Shown here in pieces: positions 1 through 16,163 of a stretch of DNA of 40,792 nucleotides. Origin of the DNA: an uncultured Ectothiorhodospiraceae bacterium. GTDB lineage: Bacteria; Pseudomonadota; Gammaproteobacteria; Nitrococcales; Halorhodospiraceae. How positions within the stretch are numbered: the stretch's first letter is position 1; every line of letters begins with the position of its first letter. The stretch spans positions 1 to 40,792 of the forward strand of contig CAJXLI010000006.1 in assembly GCA_913055575.1 (NCBI GenBank), in the 5' to 3' direction. Position numbers and translations under genes: made by a program. The notes under the pieces are model-generated. The model had not been told where the DNA came from, ran no database searches, and saw nothing but the letters and a program-made list of their open reading frames with translations.

Positions 1-1545
1 GACGTAGTCGTCCACCGTGACCCGCTTGTGCACGTTGGCGTGGGCGCCGTAGGCGTTGGCGTTGCCCTTGATGATGCGGTCGCGCAGCTCATCCACCGAG
101 GCCGGGAGCTCCACCTGGTAGCCGGCGTCGCGCAGCTCCACCAGGGTATTGTAGAGCGAGGCGAACACCGACAGGTAGGCGGCCGAGCCGAGGGCCCCCG
201 CTTCCGGCGGGAAGCTGAAGATCACGATGCTGAGCCGGCGCTCGCTGCGCTCGCTGCGCCGCAGCTGCACCAGCCGGTCCACCCGCGCGGCCAGCGTGGC
301 GGCCCGCTCGTGGTGGGCCTCCATGCGGCAGACCCCGTCGGCTCCGGGCACTGCGGCGCGGCCGGCGAAGACCATCGGCCCGGTGGCGCCATCGAGCTCG
401 GGGATGGCCACCATCATGGTCGTCTCTACCGGCGTCAGGCCGCGGTCCGAGGCCTCCCACTGTTCCAGGGACTGGAACTCCAGGGCCTGGGCGTTGAGAT
501 ACGGCACGTCCAGCTGGCGGAGCAGCTTCTCGGCAGCGCCAGCCTTGTTGTAGGCCGGTCCGCCGACGAGGGAGAAGCTGGTCAGGGAGATCACCGCATC
601 CACGGCGGCGCGGCCGTCCTGCATGAAGAACCGCTGCACGGCGGGCCGGTTGTCGAGCCCGCTAGCGAACGCCGGGATGACCCGGTAGCCGCGGCTCTCC
701 AGCACCTCGATCACCCCGTCGTAGTGGGCCGAGTCGCCGGCGAGCACGTAGGAGCGCATCAGCAGGAGCCCGACCGTCCCCCTCGCCTCGCCGGCGGCAG
801 GCGCCGGCAGCTGCCGCGGATCGCTGCCGATACGCCGCTCCATGCGGGGGTGGTAGATGCCAACATCGGGGTACTCGACCGGATCCTGGACTGCCAGCGT
901 CCCGCGGATCCCGCTGCGCGGGCCGTCGGCGTAGCGGTTGACCAGGAACCGCACCATGTTCTCGACATTCTCGTCCGAGCTGGACAGGAAGTACTGCCAG
1001 GTCAAGAAATAGGCACGCACGTCCTGGGCCGTACCGGGGATAAAGCGCAGGATCCGGGGGATGCGGCGCAGCATTGCGGCCTGCTTCTCCCCCGAGCTGC
1101 TGTCGTCGTCCTCGTCCTGATCCGCCTTGCCCTTCTTGCCGCGCAACTTCTTGAGCAGCGACATCGGCCCCTTGGTGGCGCCGTCCATGGTGAACTTGCC
1201 CATACGGGTAAGCTTCATCACCTCGCTAGCGGACATGATGGCCAGCAAGGCATCGCAGTCGTCGCGCCGAGCCTTGAGGTCCTCGAGGACCGGCTCGATG
1301 TGCTCCTCCATGAAGAGCATCGTGGCGACGATGATATCCGCCTCCGCGATCCGCGCCCGGGCCCGCTCCAGCGCCGCCTGGTTGTTATTCCAGTCCGAGG
1401 CGGCGTGGTAGGACAGCTCGAGGCCGGGTATATCCAGCTGCAGCGCCGGTCGCGCACGCTCCACGGCGCCCGCCATGTGATTGTCCAGCGTGATGATGGC
1501 GACGCGCACCGGCGTCGGGTCAGCGACTGAAGTGGGCTTTGGCAT
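1..1545 (-). CDS. bchH: Magnesium chelatase subunit H (N-terminal part, runs off window)
   Basis: BchH is the large porphyrin-binding subunit of Mg-chelatase; with BchI and BchD it inserts Mg2+ into protoporphyrin IX, the first committed step to bacteriochlorophyll. This reading is not in the ORF track because it has no stop inside the window: 515 open codons run from an ATG at 1545 to base 1. It begins [20 protein letters not shown] and contains family-typical stretches such as [24 protein letters not shown] and [18 protein letters not shown]. The full protein should be about 1,250 residues, so well over half is missing at the left edge. The start lies inside the end of bchB (26-base overlap, different frame), which suggests translational coupling. 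It is the last visible gene of a bchFNBH operon. The assignment is secure; the exact start is slightly less so. Confidence 0.95.
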
Positions 1546-3091
1546 CGTAGATCGTCTCCACTGTTATGGTCGCAATGCCTCGATCGGCGGCGAAGCGCTC
1601 GGTGTTGCGCCGGGCCTTGCCTCGCACGAAGAACGGGATCTTCTTGAGCTCGGCCTCGGCCTCCGGCGTCCAGCGTAGCTCGGCGTCATCCTCCGCCTCG
1701 GCAGCGACGGTCGCCGTATCGGCATCTTCCCCGGAACCCCCCGCCTCCGCCGGCGCGCCGGCCGAGTCAACGTGCGAGGGGACCTCGGCCGAGAACTCGA
1801 AGTCCTCCTTGAACATCCCGAGGAGGTGCTCCTCGAGCCCCATCATCAACGGATGGACCCAGGTATCGAAGATGACGTTGGCCCCCTCCAGCCCCATGTT
1901 CGGGGCGTAGCGGGCCGGGAAATCCTGCACATGGGCCGGCGCGGAGATCACGGCGCAGGGCACCCCCAGCCGCTTGGCGATGTGCCGCTCCATCTGCGTC
2001 CCGAGGACCAGCTCCGGCGCCGCCTCGGAGACGGCCTGCTCGACCTCCAGGTAGTCATCGGTGATCAGCGGATCGAGGCCGTACGCCTTGGCCGCCTGGC
2101 GGACCTCCCGCGCCTGCTCGCGGGCGTAGGTCCCCAGCCCGACCACCCGGAAGCCGAGCTCCTCGCTGGCGATGCGCGCTGCGGCCACGGCGTGGGTGGC
2201 ATCGCCGAAGATGAATACGCGCTTGCCGGTCAGGTAGTTGGAGTCCACGGAGCGGCTGTACCACGCCATGCGGGCCGAGGCCTGCGCCACGGCGGCGCTA
2301 GGATCCAGGCCCAGGGCCTCGCCGACCTCGCGCAGGAAGTCGCGGATACCGCCCAGCCCCAGGGGGACAGTGGTGGCCATCGGCTGCCTGAGCCGACGCT
2401 GCAGCCACTCGCAGGTGGTCCGGGCCACCTCGGGGTAGAGGCAGATATTGAGATCGGCCTCGGGGATGCGGCGCAGGTCGTCCGAGCTGGCCCCGAGGGG
2501 CGCCACGACGTTGACCTCGACACCGAGGAGATCGAGCAGCTTGGTGACCTCCTGGACATCGTCCCGGCACCGGAACCCCAGGGAGGTCGGCCCCAGGATA
2601 TTGGCCCGCGGGGCCTCCCCGGCAGGCCGCTCCTCGGCCCGATCCCCCCGGTCATCCACCATGGCGCGGACCAGCTGATAGAAGGCCTCGCTGGCGCCGT
2701 AGTCCTCCTTGCGGGCGTAGGCCGACAGCTCCAGGCCGATCACCGGCACCGGCAGATCCATGCCCCGCGCCAGATCCGCCGGCTGATCCTGGAGCAGCTC
2801 CGCTGTGCAGGAGTCTCCCACCAGCAGGGCCTGCGGCTGGTAGCGCTCGTAGGCGGCCGCGACGGTCTCGCGCACCAGCTCGGCCGTGTCGCGGCTCAGG
2901 TGCCGGGCGTTGAAGGTAGTGTAGGTGACGGGGGGACGCGCCGGGCGGCGCTCGATCATGGTGAACAGCAGATCGGCGTAGGTATCGCCCTGCGGGGCGT
3001 GGAGGACGCAGTGCACCCCCGTCATCGAGGCCGCCACGCGCAGGGCGCCGACATGGGGGGGACCTTCGTAGCTCCAGAGTGTCAGCTGCAT
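1520..3091 (-). CDS. bchB: Light-independent protochlorophyllide reductase subunit B
   Basis: BchB pairs with BchN to form the NB catalytic component of dark-operative protochlorophyllide reductase, which reduces ring D of protochlorophyllide with electrons from the BchL ATPase. The 523-residue length is normal. The start [18 protein letters not shown] is characteristic, and Asp36 (in PQGD) sits where Rhodobacter BchB uses an unusual aspartate ligand for the NB [4Fe-4S] cluster. The C-terminal domain ([20 protein letters not shown]) is the separate small domain typical of BchB. An acidic, Ala/Glu-rich linker around residues 435-470 precedes it and may reflect halophilic adaptation. Its ATG lies 2 bases after the bchN stop, and its end overlaps the bchH start. 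The enzyme is oxygen-sensitive, fitting an anaerobic phototroph. Confidence 0.97.
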
Positions 3092-3093
3092 CC

Positions 3094-4865
<1,772 letters not shown>

Positions 4866-4924
4866 AGGGCGCTGACGCTCCTTTGCGCTTATCCCAGCGA
4901 TCAGGAAGGTGGAACTCAGAATTG

Positions 4925-4953
4925 AATCTAAAGCCGCCCTCGGGGCGTGTCAA
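4925..4953 (-). promoter_or_regulatory. Sigma70-like promoter for bchFNBH
   Basis: Read on the minus strand, TTGACA (4953-4948) is followed after exactly 17 bases by TAGATT (4930-4925). A start near 4918 would give a leader of about 50 bases before the bchF ATG. The consensus -35 with ideal spacing is seen directly; activity is inferred. Confidence 0.6.
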
Positions 4954-4981
4954 GCTACCTGGACGTAACGCCTAATTGACA
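4948..4981. promoter_or_regulatory. Two PpsR/CrtJ-like operators between divergent promoters
   Basis: Purple bacterial PpsR/CrtJ proteins bind TGT-N12-ACA, usually in pairs. Two one-mismatch copies lie here: TGTCAAGCTACCTGGACG (4948-4965) and CGTAACGCCTAATTGACA (4964-4981). The second also fits the fuller TGTAA-N8-TTACA form fairly well. They abut, and each overlaps the -35 box of one of the divergent promoters. Function is inferred from position and from the adjacent ppsR-like gene. Confidence 0.45.
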
Positions 4982-5005
4982 CAGGCTTTCAGATGTACGT
5001 ACAGG
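4976..5005 (+). promoter_or_regulatory. Possible promoter for the ppsR-like gene
   Basis: TTGACA at 4976-4981 is followed 18 bases later by TACAGG (5000-5005), a weak -10. The predicted leader would be about 165 bases. The whole 310-base gap 4866-5175 otherwise shows no gene; it also holds the self-complementary TGTACGTACA at 4994-5003, overlapping this -10. Confidence 0.35.
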
Positions 5006-5175
5006 CATCAGTCCCGTAAACGGACACGTCGTCGCAACCATGCATGTTTTTCTTGAATCGCGCAGCCAAAATCTAGGGAAATAACTGGCCCATACCTATT
5101 CCCGATGAAATTCGTCTACATTCAACGCCCCCAAGCCGGAAAGGCCTAGAGACGACGCCCTGAGGACAGCCGTTT

Positions 5176-5808
5176 TTGCAACCGATGAGCGCGCCAAGGC
5201 AGACACTGGATGGCCTGTCGGCGGAGACCGTAGGCGAGCTTCTCGCGGCGGCCGTCGACATCACCCTCGTGCTCGATCACGAGGGCGTCATCCGTGATCT
5301 AGCGCTGAGCAGCGAGGACCCGGCGCTGCAGGCGTCAACGGACTGGATCGGCAAGCGCTGGGTTGACGTGGCCACTGCCCCGGGGCGGGAAGCGATCGCT
5401 AGCCTGCTGAGCGGCCATGAGACAGCCGCAGGGGGGCTCACGGTCTGCCACCGGGAGGCTACCGGGAGTCCGGTGCCCGTTCGCTACCGGGTCGTGCGGC
5501 TCGACAACGGCTATCGAGCCGCCCTCGGCCGGGATCTGCGCCCTAGCACCGAGCCGCACCGGCAGCTGCGGGAGCATGAGCGGCTCCGCTCCATCGAGCA
5601 GACCACCGCCCTGGTGGGCCAGGTACCGCTGCGCGATCTCGTCCGTGAGGCCACGGACCTGATCGAGCGCATGTGCATAGAGACCGCGCTACACGCCACC
5701 CACAACAATCGGGCCTCCGCGGCCGAGCTGCTCGGGCTCAGCCGCCAGAGCCTCTACTCCAAGCTGCGCCGCCACGGGCTGATGGCCTCCCACCACGACG
5801 CCGAGTGA
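5176..5808 (+). CDS. Short PpsR/CrtJ-like photosynthesis repressor
   Basis: This is a transcription regulator of the PpsR/CrtJ type, which represses bch, crt and puc genes. The 210 residues contain only one PAS-like N-domain (about 15-122; ITLVLDHEGVIRDLAL, ending in GRDLRPS), a short charged linker (125-145), the signature VGQVPLRDLVREATDLIE, and a Fis-type helix-turn-helix (NNRASAAELLGLSRQSLYSK, about 177-196). Known PpsR proteins are about 460-480 residues with two further PAS domains; both appear to be absent. Two cysteines remain, Cys91 and Cys167; the latter immediately precedes the HTH, near where I recall a redox-active cysteine in CrtJ. The first codon is TTG with GAGG ten bases upstream; an ATG at 5185 is the alternative. 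Divergence from bchF and the operator-like sites suggest it controls bchFNBH and itself. Confidence 0.85.
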   Translation: MQPMSAPRQTLDGLSAETVGELLAAAVDITLVLDHEGVIRDLALSSEDPALQASTDWIGKRWVDVATAPGREAIASLLSGHETAAGGLTVCHREATGSPVPVRYRVVRLDNGYRAALGRDLRPSTEPHRQLREHERLRSIEQTTALVGQVPLRDLVREATDLIERMCIETALHATHNNRASAAELLGLSRQSLYSKLRRHGLMASHHDAE

Positions 5809-5876
5809 CGCACTTGACCCGCTACGCGGGCACCCCTAGCTTGGCCACGCCACCGCACGGGAGGACTACACCACCC

Positions 5877-7169
5877 ATGGAGACACCGGCAAACGCTTCC
5901 CAGGTCCAGCCGCAAAGCCCCGCTGAAGGGATGCAGACCCCGCCCGTCGCAGCAGCTGCATGGCGGGAGCTGTGCACCGATTGCGGGCTCTCCCGGACCA
6001 CGGATCCGGGACGCTGCGGCCGCGCCTGCCAATTCCTGCGCCCGGACTATCCCGCCATGGAGCGCCGCGTCCACGGCCGCGCCCGGGACCCGGGACAGCA
6101 CCCGGACGAGCTCCACTTCGGGGTACACCGGCGCATGCTGCAGGCCGCCCTCCGCCATCCGCGGCCGGGAGCGCAGTGGACCGGCATCACCACCCGCCTC
6201 GGCGAGCGCCTCCTGGAGACCGGCACCGTGGACGCCATCTTGACCGTGACCGGCGCCCCGGATGACAGCTGGCACCCCCAGCCCGCGCTGGTCACCGAGC
6301 CAGCGCTGATGGCCGAGTGCCGCGGCATGCGCATGGGATACGCCCCCCTGCTCGCCCTGCTCGAGACGGCACGAGCACGCGGCTACCGGCGTCTGGGCGT
6401 CATCGCCCTGCCCTGCCAGGTCTATCCGCTGCGGGTGCTCGAGCACGAGCTGGGCCTGGAGCGGCTGGAGATCATCGGCACCCCGTGCGCGGACAATACC
6501 ACCACCGAGCGCTTCCACGAGTTCCTGGGCCTGCTCACGGCAGAGCCAGGACAGGTCAACTACCTGGAGTTCCGGGCCGACTACTACGTGGAGCTGCACT
6601 TCCAGGGGGGCGGCAAGGAGGAGATGCCCTTCCTGCAGCTACCGATCTCCCAGCTGCCTAGCGATTTCTGGCCGCTGACCTGCCGGACCTGCGTGGACTA
6701 CACCAACGCCCTCGCCGATCTGACCGTCGGCTATATGGCCGGCCGCGGCGAGCAGTGGCTCATCGTGCGCAACCAGCGCGGCGAGCGGCTGCTCGAGCTG
6801 CTCGGCGACGAGCTCCGCTGCCGCGAGCCGCGCAGCGGGGGCAAGCGTCGCGGTCCCGTCCAGGGATTCATCAACAATACCGAGCGCGCGGCTGGCGGGA
6901 TGCCCACCCGCGGCATGCCCAACTGGTTGCGCCCCATCGTCGGCCGGCTCATGCCGTACGTCGGCCCGCGAGGCCTGGAGCTGGCCCGCGCGCGGCTGGA
7001 GATGAAGGCCGCCGAGACCCTCATCCACCTGCACCAGGTGGCGCCGCGCCGGGTGAAATCCATGGTGCCCGACCACGTCTGGCAGCTGGTGGCAGGCTAC
7101 CAGATCAGCGGGATTACGGAGGTTCACGAGGAGAACAGGGGGCAGGACGGCAGCGGCCCGGCGGCCTGA
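5877..7169 (+). CDS. bciB: Ferredoxin-type 8-vinyl chlorophyllide reductase (BciB / FrhB family)
   Basis: The protein belongs to the coenzyme-F420 dehydrogenase beta-subunit (FrhB) family; within a bacteriochlorophyll cluster this is BciB, which reduces the C8 vinyl of divinyl chlorophyllide using reduced ferredoxin and FAD. The 430 residues carry an N-terminal cysteine set (Cys33, Cys36, Cys47, Cys51 in LCTDCGLS and GRCGRACQF) and a later CRTC pair (Cys269/Cys272), consistent with two iron-sulfur clusters, plus the family stretch GVIALPCQVYPLR. The track ORF starts 68 codons too early; the ATG at 5877 is preceded by GGGAGGA and begins METPANASQV. It follows the ppsR-like gene by 68 bases and may share its transcript. 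The FrhB family assignment is certain; the substrate is inferred from context and known BciB proteins. Confidence 0.85.
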   Translation: METPANASQVQPQSPAEGMQTPPVAAAAWRELCTDCGLSRTTDPGRCGRACQFLRPDYPAMERRVHGRARDPGQHPDELHFGVHRRMLQAALRHPRPGAQWTGITTRLGERLLETGTVDAILTVTGAPDDSWHPQPALVTEPALMAECRGMRMGYAPLLALLETARARGYRRLGVIALPCQVYPLRVLEHELGLERLEIIGTPCADNTTTERFHEFLGLLTAEPGQVNYLEFRADYYVELHFQGGGKEEMPFLQLPISQLPSDFWPLTCRTCVDYTNALADLTVGYMAGRGEQWLIVRNQRGERLLELLGDELRCREPRSGGKRRGPVQGFINNTERAAGGMPTRGMPNWLRPIVGRLMPYVGPRGLELARARLEMKAAETLIHLHQVAPRRVKSMVPDHVWQLVAGYQISGITEVHEENRGQDGSGPAA

Positions 7170-7226: not shown

Positions 7227-7679
7227 TCAGGCCGGCTCGACGAGCAGGAGATAGCGCAGCGCGTCGGCATATTCGCGGGGCGTGGCTCGCTCGCCGTTCC
7301 TCTCGCGCTCCAGGGCAGTATCCACCTGCGTGCGCGCCACCAGGGAGAGCTCGCGCATACCGGCGGCGCCCACGGTATCCACGTATTGGGTCACGAACTG
7401 CTGCGACTGCAGCCGCTCCACCTCGCCGCTGATCGCCCGGGTCCAGAGCACCCGGCGCACCCCAACCAGCACGAAGATGGCCGCCGGCAGGGCGATCGCG
7501 ACGATCAAGATCGCCAGGGTGCCCTCGGCGCCGGGGAGCAGGTCCCGCTGGATGCCGATCAGGTAGGCGATAACCCCGCCGACGGCGGCCGCCGGGAAGC
7601 TGATCCCGGAGGCCTGCCACGTCGTCCGGGTGAGCTGCTTGAGCAGGTGCGCCCGCTCCTCGTGGATCCAGTTTGTCAT
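7227..7679 (-). CDS. Small two-span membrane protein, unknown function
   Basis: I do not recognise a family. The 150-residue product starts MTNWIHEERAHLLKQLTRTT and has two clear membrane segments, about residues 25-43 (ISFPAAAVGGVIAYLIGI) and 54-74 (LAILIVAIALPAAIFVLVGV), followed by a soluble, charged C-terminal half. The track ORF is longer, but the ATG at 7679 has AAGGAG seven bases upstream and is the better start. It follows trpB2 by 64 bases on the same strand and could be cotranscribed with it. The short N-terminus, two spans and roughly 75-residue cytoplasmic tail resemble small inner-membrane helper proteins, but nothing in the sequence names a partner. Confidence 0.75.
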   Translation of the reverse strand: MTNWIHEERAHLLKQLTRTTWQASGISFPAAAVGGVIAYLIGIQRDLLPGAEGTLAILIVAIALPAAIFVLVGVRRVLWTRAISGEVERLQSQQFVTQYVDTVGAAGMRELSLVARTQVDTALERERNGERATPREYADALRYLLLVEPA

Positions 7680-7743
7680 GCCGAGCTCCTTACCTCCTTC
7701 ACTGGTCTGCCGATGCCTCTGCCAGGGGCCGGAACCGCACCCG

Positions 7744-9111
7744 TCAGCCCTCCACCGAGGGCAGCCCCGACAATGCCATGGCGGCTTCCACCTCACTGCC
7801 GGCCAGGTCGCTGAGGTTCCCGGCGAGGTAGTCGGTGTAGGCCTGCATGTCGAAGTTCCCGTGGCCGCACAGATTGAAGAGGATCGCCTTGGACGTCCCT
7901 TGCTCGCGGCACGCCAGCGCCTCGTCGATCGCCCCCTTGACGGCGTGGTTGGCCTCCGGGGCGGGGATAATCCCCTCGGCCTGGGCGAACTGCAGCCCCG
8001 CGGCAAAGCACTCGAGCTGCTTGTAGGCCCGGGCCTTGAGGTAGCCGAGATCCTTCAGGTGGCTGATCTGCGGCGCCATGCCGTGGTAGCGCAAGCCACC
8101 CGCATGGAATCCCGGCGGCACGAAACCGGCGCCAAGGGTGTGCATCTTGGTCAACGGCGTCAACTGCGCGGAATCGCCGTAGTCGTAGGCAAAGCGCCCC
8201 TGGGTCAGGGTCGGGCAGGCCAGCGGCTCCACGGCGATGGTCTCGACGTCGCGACCGCCGCGCATGGCCTCACCGAGGAAGGGGAAGACGATGCCGGCGA
8301 AGTTGCTACCGCCGCCGGCACAGGCGACGATCGTATCCGGGTAGTCATCGGCCAGCGCCAGCTGCTCCATGGCCTCGAGCCCCGTGACCGTCTGGTGCAG
8401 CAGGACGTGATTGAGGACACTGCCCAGGGCGTAGTGGGTGTCCCCCCGCTGCGCCGCCTCCTCGACCGCCTCGCCGATGGCGATACCGAGGCTGCCGGTG
8501 CTCTCGGGATTCTCGGCCAGCACGGCACGACCAAAGGCGGTACGCTCGCTGGGGCTGGCGACGCACCCCGCTCCGAAGCTCTCCATGAAGGCCCGCCGAT
8601 ACGGCTTCTGCCGGTAGCTGACGCCGACCATATAGACCTCGATATCGAGGTCGAACATGGCGCCGGCCAGCGCTAGCGACGACCCCCATTGGCCGGCCCC
8701 CGTCTCGGTCGTGATCCGGCGCACCCCCTCGGCGTAGTTGTAGAACGCCTGCGGGATGGCGGTATTCGGCTTGTGGCTCCCTACGGGGCTGACGCCCTCG
8801 TACTTGTAGTAGATGCGCGCCGGGGTATCGAGCGCCGCCTCCAGGCGGCGCGCCCGGTACAGCGGTGACGGGCGCCACTGCCGGTAGACATCGCGTACCG
8901 GCTCCGGGATCTCGATCGACCGCTCCGTACTCAGCTCCTGCTCGATGACCCCCTGCGGGAAGAGCGGCGCCAGATCCGTCGGCGAGAGCGGCTCCTTGGT
9001 GACCGGATGGCGCGCTGGCGCTAGCGGGACCGGCAGATCGGCGTTAATGTTGTACCAGGAGCGCGGGATGCGCGCCTCGTCGAGGACGAACTTCACCGTC
9101 TCGCTGCTCAT
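7744..9111 (-). CDS. trpB: Tryptophan synthase beta chain, TrpB2 type
   Basis: This PLP enzyme condenses indole with serine to form tryptophan. It is the TrpB2 form: 455 residues (classical TrpB1 is about 400), with an N-terminal extension ([20 protein letters not shown]) typical of TrpB2. The Schiff-base lysine lies in GSHKPNTA (about residue 113), the PLP phosphate loop is GGGSNF, and NLCGHGNFD is near the C-terminus. No trpA or other trp genes are adjacent. TrpB2 proteins often work without TrpA, as indole-salvage or serine-using enzymes, so the gene may supplement a trp operon elsewhere. The start ATG at 9111 follows a weak GAGC-rich leader. Confidence 0.93.
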
Positions 9112-15753: not shown

Positions 15754-15933
15754 ATGAGAGATCGTAACGAGATGGTGGATTTCGACGATCCGGATCGGGT
15801 TTGGCCGTCCGGCCTGACGCTGCCGGAGGCGGAGGAGCTGCACCAGTACGTGCTGGATGGTGCGCGCATCTTCTTCGGCATCGCCGTAGTCGCGCACGTC
15901 CTGGCTTTTGTCTATTCGCCGTGGCTCGGTTAA
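15754..15933 (+). CDS. pucB: Light-harvesting complex beta polypeptide (LH2 type)
   Basis: This is a 59-residue antenna beta subunit with one transmembrane helix. The sequence [20 protein letters not shown] is typical of the family. His30 and His48 lie 18 residues apart, the spacing of the B800-side and B850-ligand histidines of LH2 beta chains; the helix ends in the usual aromatic/PWL region (VYSPWLG). The track ORF starts 20 codons early; the ATG at 15754 follows AAAAGGAG. The N-terminal tail is acidic (MVDFDDPDR). It is followed 14 bases later by the alpha chain, so they form a pucBA operon. LH1 versus LH2 is decided mainly by the alpha chain. Confidence 0.93.
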
Positions 15934-15947
15934 GGGAGGGCTGAATC

Positions 15948-16163
15948 ATGTATAACGCTCGTATTTGGCTCGTTGTTCGGCCCAGTGTCGGCCTGCCGCT
16001 GCTGCTGGGGACCGTGCTGGTGCTCTCGCTGCTGGTCCACTCTGCGATCCTGACGAACACCGACTGGTTACCCAGCTTCTTCCAGGGCAGCAACGCCGCT
16101 GCCGAGGCCCCGGCCGAGGTTGCTGCGAACGAGGCTGTGCAGCCGAGCGCGTCAATCCTGTAA
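15948..16163 (+). CDS. pucA: Light-harvesting complex alpha polypeptide (LH2/LH3 type)
   Basis: The 71-residue alpha chain aligns without gaps to Rhodopseudomonas acidophila LH2 alpha: Ile6-Trp7, Pro12, Gly15, Pro17, Gly21, His31 (bacteriochlorophyll ligand), Trp40, Pro42, Gln46. This favours LH2 over LH1. Positions 44-45, Tyr-Trp in B850 LH2 and Phe-Leu in blue-shifted B820 (LH3), are Phe-Phe here (DWLPSFFQG), so the hydrogen bonds to the C3 acetyl groups would be lost. An Ala/Glu-rich tail (about 48-66) extends past the usual end. GGGAGG precedes the ATG and a strong terminator follows. The residue reading is direct; spectral consequences are inferred. Confidence 0.93.
   Translation: MYNARIWLVVRPSVGLPLLLGTVLVLSLLVHSAILTNTDWLPSFFQGSNAAAEAPAEVAANEAVQPSASIL

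Follow-up and report, generated by a model that had tools for sequence, protein, structure and literature searches.

The window analysed here, a stretch of 40,792 nucleotides, carries on its minus strand the genes bchB (1520..3091), bchN (3094..4374) and bchF (4371..4865), all of them assigned by profile matches. The last one encodes a 2-vinyl bacteriochlorophyllide hydratase and is the presumed target of the regulatory gene described below. This gene, here named mini-ppsR, occupies positions 5176..5808 of the plus strand, and the next gene downstream (5877..7169, plus strand) codes for a bciB-type reductase of the FrhB/FdhB family, assigned by context as an 8-vinyl reductase. A light-harvesting alpha/beta pair (PF00556) is located at 15826-16070 and is separate from the puf pair found on contig C18 of the same genome. 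An Rfam search gave no match at 4300-6000.

The mini-ppsR gene starts with a TTG codon, with an alternative ATG three codons in, and encodes a protein of 210 amino acids. Its N-terminal PAS domain (residues 22-121, 5239..5538) is homologous to the N-domain of PpsR (PDB 4hh2, 4hh3, 4l9g), and its HTH_8/Fis-type DNA-binding domain (residues 146-203, 5611..5784) was recognized by Pfam and by alignment. Between both domains, all encoded on the plus strand, a short linker (residues 122-145, 5539..5610) stands in place of the Q-linker, PAS1 and PAS2. The Pfam analysis revealed HTH_8 (5e-13) and a single PAS_4 (1e-5), and the PpsR-CrtJ model TIGR02040 gave just two matching stretches, at model positions 1-114 and 368-442. 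At 167.8 bits, the summed score is below the curated cut-off of this full-length equivalog model (275.4) because about 250 middle model positions are absent. When the protein was aligned to five full-length PpsRs, the gap comprised most of the Q-linker together with PAS1 and PAS2 as a single block, and these three elements were absent from all seven short proteins aligned; no room or fragment for them is left near mini-ppsR.

The closest solved chains by profile were those of Rhodobacter sphaeroides PpsR 4hh2 and 4hh3, matched in the N-domain only (residues 10-137, E 2e-14), so the PAS domain retained is the N-domain of PpsR and not PAS1 or PAS2. The AlphaFold2 model, built from a seven-row alignment (mean pLDDT 70), consists of a PAS fold, a low-confidence helix for the linker and the HTH, and the best PDB matches of this predicted structure were again PpsR chains. 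An earlier note, made from the sequence alone, had described a 210-residue fusion of the PpsR N-domain to the PpsR HTH, and this description was confirmed by TIGR02040, Pfam, the alignment and the 4hh2/4hh3 match. From its sequence, mini-PpsR is a PpsR by descent and not by the full-length definition, since PAS1, PAS2 and the Q-linker were looked for and are absent.

Distribution, ancestry and lost partners

Short PpsR proteins were found in seven of the nine genomes of the genus, presumably Halorhodospira, always in the same place (bchB-bchN-bchF / mini-ppsR / bciB) and with 46-81% identity between the window protein and the others. An assembly error or a chance fusion in a metagenome bin is practically negligible as an explanation and was rejected: the window belongs to an assembly of 2.0 Mb in 155 contigs that is 84% complete, but the same protein with the same neighbours recurs in six other genomes, one of them a complete chromosome in a single contig (2,678,452 bp). 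The earlier note had pointed to full-length homologues in close relatives as the sign of such an error, and the opposite was found, all seven proteins being short. A full-length PpsR was not found in any of the nine genomes of the genus; in the genome of the window, where a second, full-length copy is absent, the other TIGR02040 matches were generic PAS proteins.

Outside the genus, about 800 genomes were sampled (54 of the order, 369 of the class and 399 of the phylum), and every PpsR in them was full length, with an open frame of ~470 residues or more. Full-length proteins are likewise encoded by the ppsR genes examined on plasmids of Thiodictyon and Novosphingobium. Short PpsRs were thus not present among the PpsR-bearing class, order and phylum genomes or the plasmid matches examined, and phage and viral collections gave no match. 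One complete genome of the same order (G038) carries a full-length PpsR at locus L011 (G038:C1:816799-818121), and neither bchF nor a light-harvesting protein was found in it, making this a case of PpsR in the absence of its customary photosynthesis genes.

The Halorhodospira gene has been named ppsR previously (PMC8877833), and a text search of that paper revealed no mention of a truncation or of PAS domains. The short architecture was not found described in the literature search, and mini-PpsR is a known kind of regulator whose short variant appears to be new.

Two genomes of the genus, G001 and G008, the latter a single contig of 2,834,560 bp, lack PpsR. Since ppsR has been reported absent from Hlr. 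halochloris and Hlr. abdelmalekii, both genomes probably belong to the bacteriochlorophyll-b species (cf. PMC8877833). A joint deletion of mini-ppsR and bciB was considered for these genomes and rejected, because bciB is present elsewhere in both (contig C23 of G001 and position 808221 of G008). The gene located upstream of bchF in them (bchF being at L092 in G001 and L093 in G008) seems to be a homologue of the end part of the open reading frame 7227-8006 on the minus strand of the window.

In a tree built on the shared columns, the seven short proteins formed one clade (UFBoot 100) nested among full-length PpsRs, near those of the Ectothiorhodospira-like genomes G027 and G043. This position points to a single internal deletion event, and together with the one-block gap in the alignment it upholds the internal deletion in a PpsR ancestor that had been proposed beforehand. 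Among the pairs of short proteins listed, pairwise dN/dS was 0.01-0.17 for the HTH and about 0.2-0.67 for the PAS domain. Purifying selection therefore acts on both domains. It is strong on the DNA-binding HTH and weaker on the PAS sensor half, which evolves faster.

The deletion is accompanied by changes in the neighbourhood. In G027 and G043 two aerR genes flank ppsR, bciB comes next and bchF lies at the opposite end of the group; in the genomes with mini-ppsR neither aerR gene is left, and bchF is adjacent to mini-ppsR and this in turn to bciB. The two aerR/ppaA genes of the Ectothiorhodospira-like genomes are diverged from each other (L009, 354-1328 and 3159-4121; L127). No AerR/PpaA match and no BLUF protein, those of the AppA type included, was found in the nine genomes of the genus, and ppaA has been reported absent from Halorhodospiraceae (PMC8877833). 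The loss of the known inputs that the earlier note had anticipated was thus borne out both in the protein, by the absence of PAS1 and PAS2, and in its partners.

Concerning redox input, the pair Cys91/Cys167 had been suggested as the sensor. Cys167 (codon 5674..5676, plus strand) is invariant in all the short proteins and aligns with the HTH cysteine of the full-length PpsRs aligned, equivalent to Cys424/Cys420 of PpsR/CrtJ. Cys91 is shared by just two proteins, that of the window and its nearest relative, and it was rejected as a redox partner because it is not conserved across the clade; the proposed pair did not survive. The Cys424 of R. sphaeroides PpsR has been reported to form disulfides or to be oxidatively modified (PMC3949515). 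Both Cys251, the proposed intramolecular partner of the HTH cysteine, and the haem-linked His275 lie in PAS1/PAS2 and are hence absent from mini-PpsR, of which Cys167 is the one conserved candidate for redox control.

Candidate operators at the bch promoters

The binding motif of PpsR is TGTc-N10-gACA (PMC3949515). Between bchF and mini-ppsR, a first candidate operator (4948..4965, TGTCAAGCTACCTGGACG) reads CGTC-N10-GACA from the bchF side and overlaps the -35 element of the bchF promoter predicted from sequence and conservation on the minus strand (4925..4953), which consists of TTGACA (4948-4953), a 17-bp spacer and the -10 hexamer TAGATT (4925-4930). A second candidate operator (4964..4981, CGTAACGCCTAATTGACA), a weaker palindrome, overlaps the first by 2 bp and also covers the presumed -35 hexamer TTGACA of mini-ppsR (4976..4981, plus strand). 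The resulting 34-bp overlapping double palindrome occupies the same position in the genomes with mini-ppsR, in G027 and G043, with full-length PpsR, and in Thiodictyon; the second palindrome is degenerate in G002 and G003. In the stretch from the double operator to mini-ppsR there is a further block of 8 bp (TCGTCGCA, 5029-5036) that is invariant in 7/7 genomes; it is similar to one half of a RegA/PrrA-type site, and may be the site of another regulator or part of a promoter.

The CGTC-N10-GACA palindrome lies exactly over the bchF -35 hexamer TTGACA in all seven genomes. In this 18-mer 15 of 18 columns were invariant, as against roughly one column in four across the intergenic region (Fisher P 5e-7), in a test which, as for the bchC site, is rough and ignores shared ancestry. 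At bchC, an identical palindrome (AGTCAAGTTAGGCTGACA) covers the -10 element in 7/7 genomes, and the upstream columns are far less conserved (6/29 invariant, six rows compared). The palindromes at bchF and bchC are near-consensus, with one arm position off TGTc-N10-gACA. In the PpsR-less genomes G001 and G008 the bchF promoter keeps the -35 TTGACA and a -10 TAGACT and has lost the other palindrome arm, and the bchC promoter keeps TTGACA and TTAGGCT and has lost both arms of the -10 palindrome. As G001 and G008 are one related pair, these losses may represent a single evolutionary event.

Candidate sites of the form [TC]GTC-N10-GACG were found over the bchG -35 element (L132:2733, L137:5251, L141:16222, L143:12488 and L170), and half of the site at bchF and bchG is at the same time the -35 hexamer. 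Conservation at bchG is mixed: since the PpsR-less G001 keeps TGTCACGGCAGCTTGACG there, dependence of this site on PpsR cannot be claimed, and it may belong to another factor. No site was seen by eye at the crtE promoter in two genomes. By number the motif was not enriched: the window has 2 copies for 2.36 expected, and 41 matches above threshold in the photosynthesis loci compare with 32-57 after shuffling. Since motif counting is not above chance, the case for operators is based on position, conservation and loss. The apparent conservation of PpsR targets in the genomes with mini-ppsR, as judged from the candidate sites at bchF and bchC, is a new observation.

The arrangement of the sites also differs. 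Binding of R. capsulatus CrtJ at bchC is cooperative and involves two palindromes 8 bp apart (PMC6199135); tandem palindromes with exactly this spacing are present at bchC and bchG of G027 and G043, one over the -35 and the other over the -10 element. In the genomes with mini-ppsR, bchC has a good -10 site and a -35 site whose far arm is lost, and at bchG the -35 site remains and the -10 site has disappeared. PAS2 and the Q-linker provide the contacts of the PpsR tetramer (PMC3949515). Paired sites and these tetramer-forming parts were lost together, as a switch to non-cooperative dimer binding would predict, but this is a correlation across one clade. It can tentatively be suggested that a minimal, antirepressor-free PpsR arose in which the loss of the oligomerisation domains and the rewriting of promoters from tandem cooperative to single palindromes went together across the genus.

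Mode of action and comparison with known systems

Mini-PpsR is probably a dimeric, non-cooperative repressor of bch genes that works without antirepressors and in which Cys167 would be the sole conserved candidate redox residue; its dimeric state, DNA binding, repressor activity and redox sensing are what we infer from the architecture and the candidate sites. In the ancestor of the bacteriochlorophyll-a Halorhodospira, the Q-linker, PAS1 and PAS2 would have gone in one internal deletion, and the two aerR genes beside ppsR would have disappeared as well; the remainder would be a PAS domain for dimerisation attached to the DNA-binding domain of PpsR. The dimer would bind the palindromes over the bchF -35 element, together with its own promoter, and over the bchC -10 element, repressing the bch promoters and itself by blocking RNA polymerase. 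As the tetramer parts are missing, cooperative binding to spaced tandem sites would not be expected, and without AerR or AppA none of their light signals would be received. Repression is favoured by the position of the candidate operators on -35 and -10 elements. Poor DNA binding by mini-PpsR is also possible, since in R. sphaeroides PpsR DNA binding is tied to oligomerisation (PMC3949515) and PAS1/PAS2 are absent here.

With the known input domains and partners gone and a double operator overlapping the presumed mini-ppsR promoter, the protein could instead bind DNA constitutively and independently of redox, its level set only by autoregulation and buffering bch expression. This is unlikely, as Cys167 is invariant and purifying selection continues to act on the PAS domain. 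Slightly less probable is a role as activator or dual regulator of bch genes in phototrophic conditions, no longer as repressor. Halorhodospira are anaerobic phototrophs without the aerobic cyclase AcsF (PMC8877833), so that aerobic repression would be less useful, and CrtJ with long AerR can activate (PMC6199135); however, that activity needs AerR, absent here, and a protein bound at the candidate sites would sit on -35 and -10 elements, which normally blocks the polymerase. It is very improbable that mini-PpsR is a dominant-negative or vestigial remnant heading to loss, with the PpsR-less relatives as end point: the gene is indeed missing from two genomes of the genus and the N-domain changes fast, but there is no full-length PpsR to poison, the HTH remains under the constraint given above and the candidate sites are kept over deep divergence.

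PpsR/CrtJ is a central repressor of purple-bacterial photosynthesis, and arguments on the roles of its three PAS domains have relied on deletion constructs. The short proteins are a natural deletion of two of these domains that became fixed in a genus, and its relatives have either a full-length PpsR (Ectothiorhodospira-like) or none (the two sister genomes). They offer a direct test of what PAS1 and PAS2 are required for (DNA binding, cooperativity or signal input only) and of whether the HTH cysteine alone can sense redox; mini-PpsR may also serve as a useful small protein for structure work. A whole group of salt-loving purple bacteria would have a bacteriochlorophyll-gene repressor minus the usual light and oxygen input parts, apparently still paired with the old DNA switches.

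Among other proteins, those with Fis and NtrC-type C-terminal HTHs share the HTH_8 fold, lack the PpsR N-domain and gave weaker matches. The PpsR-type proteins of Bradyrhizobium (L040-L044) have the same HTH, with IERMCIETAL, but are full length (494 aa). Mini-PpsR resembles PpsR of R. sphaeroides and CrtJ of R. capsulatus in its N-domain and HTH, homologous end to end, in the HTH cysteine, in the location of its gene beside bchF and in the candidate TGTc-N10-gACA-type operators at bchF and bchC. Unlike them, it is devoid of the Q-linker, PAS1, PAS2, Cys251 and His275, it has no AppA or AerR as partner, and its genomes have single, not tandem, bchC sites. The PpsRs of G027 and G043 share with it a nearby tree branch, the bchF double operator and the bchF-ppsR-bciB neighbourhood, and differ in being full length (470 aa), in the two flanking aerR genes and in the 8 bp spaced tandem palindromes at bchC and bchG.
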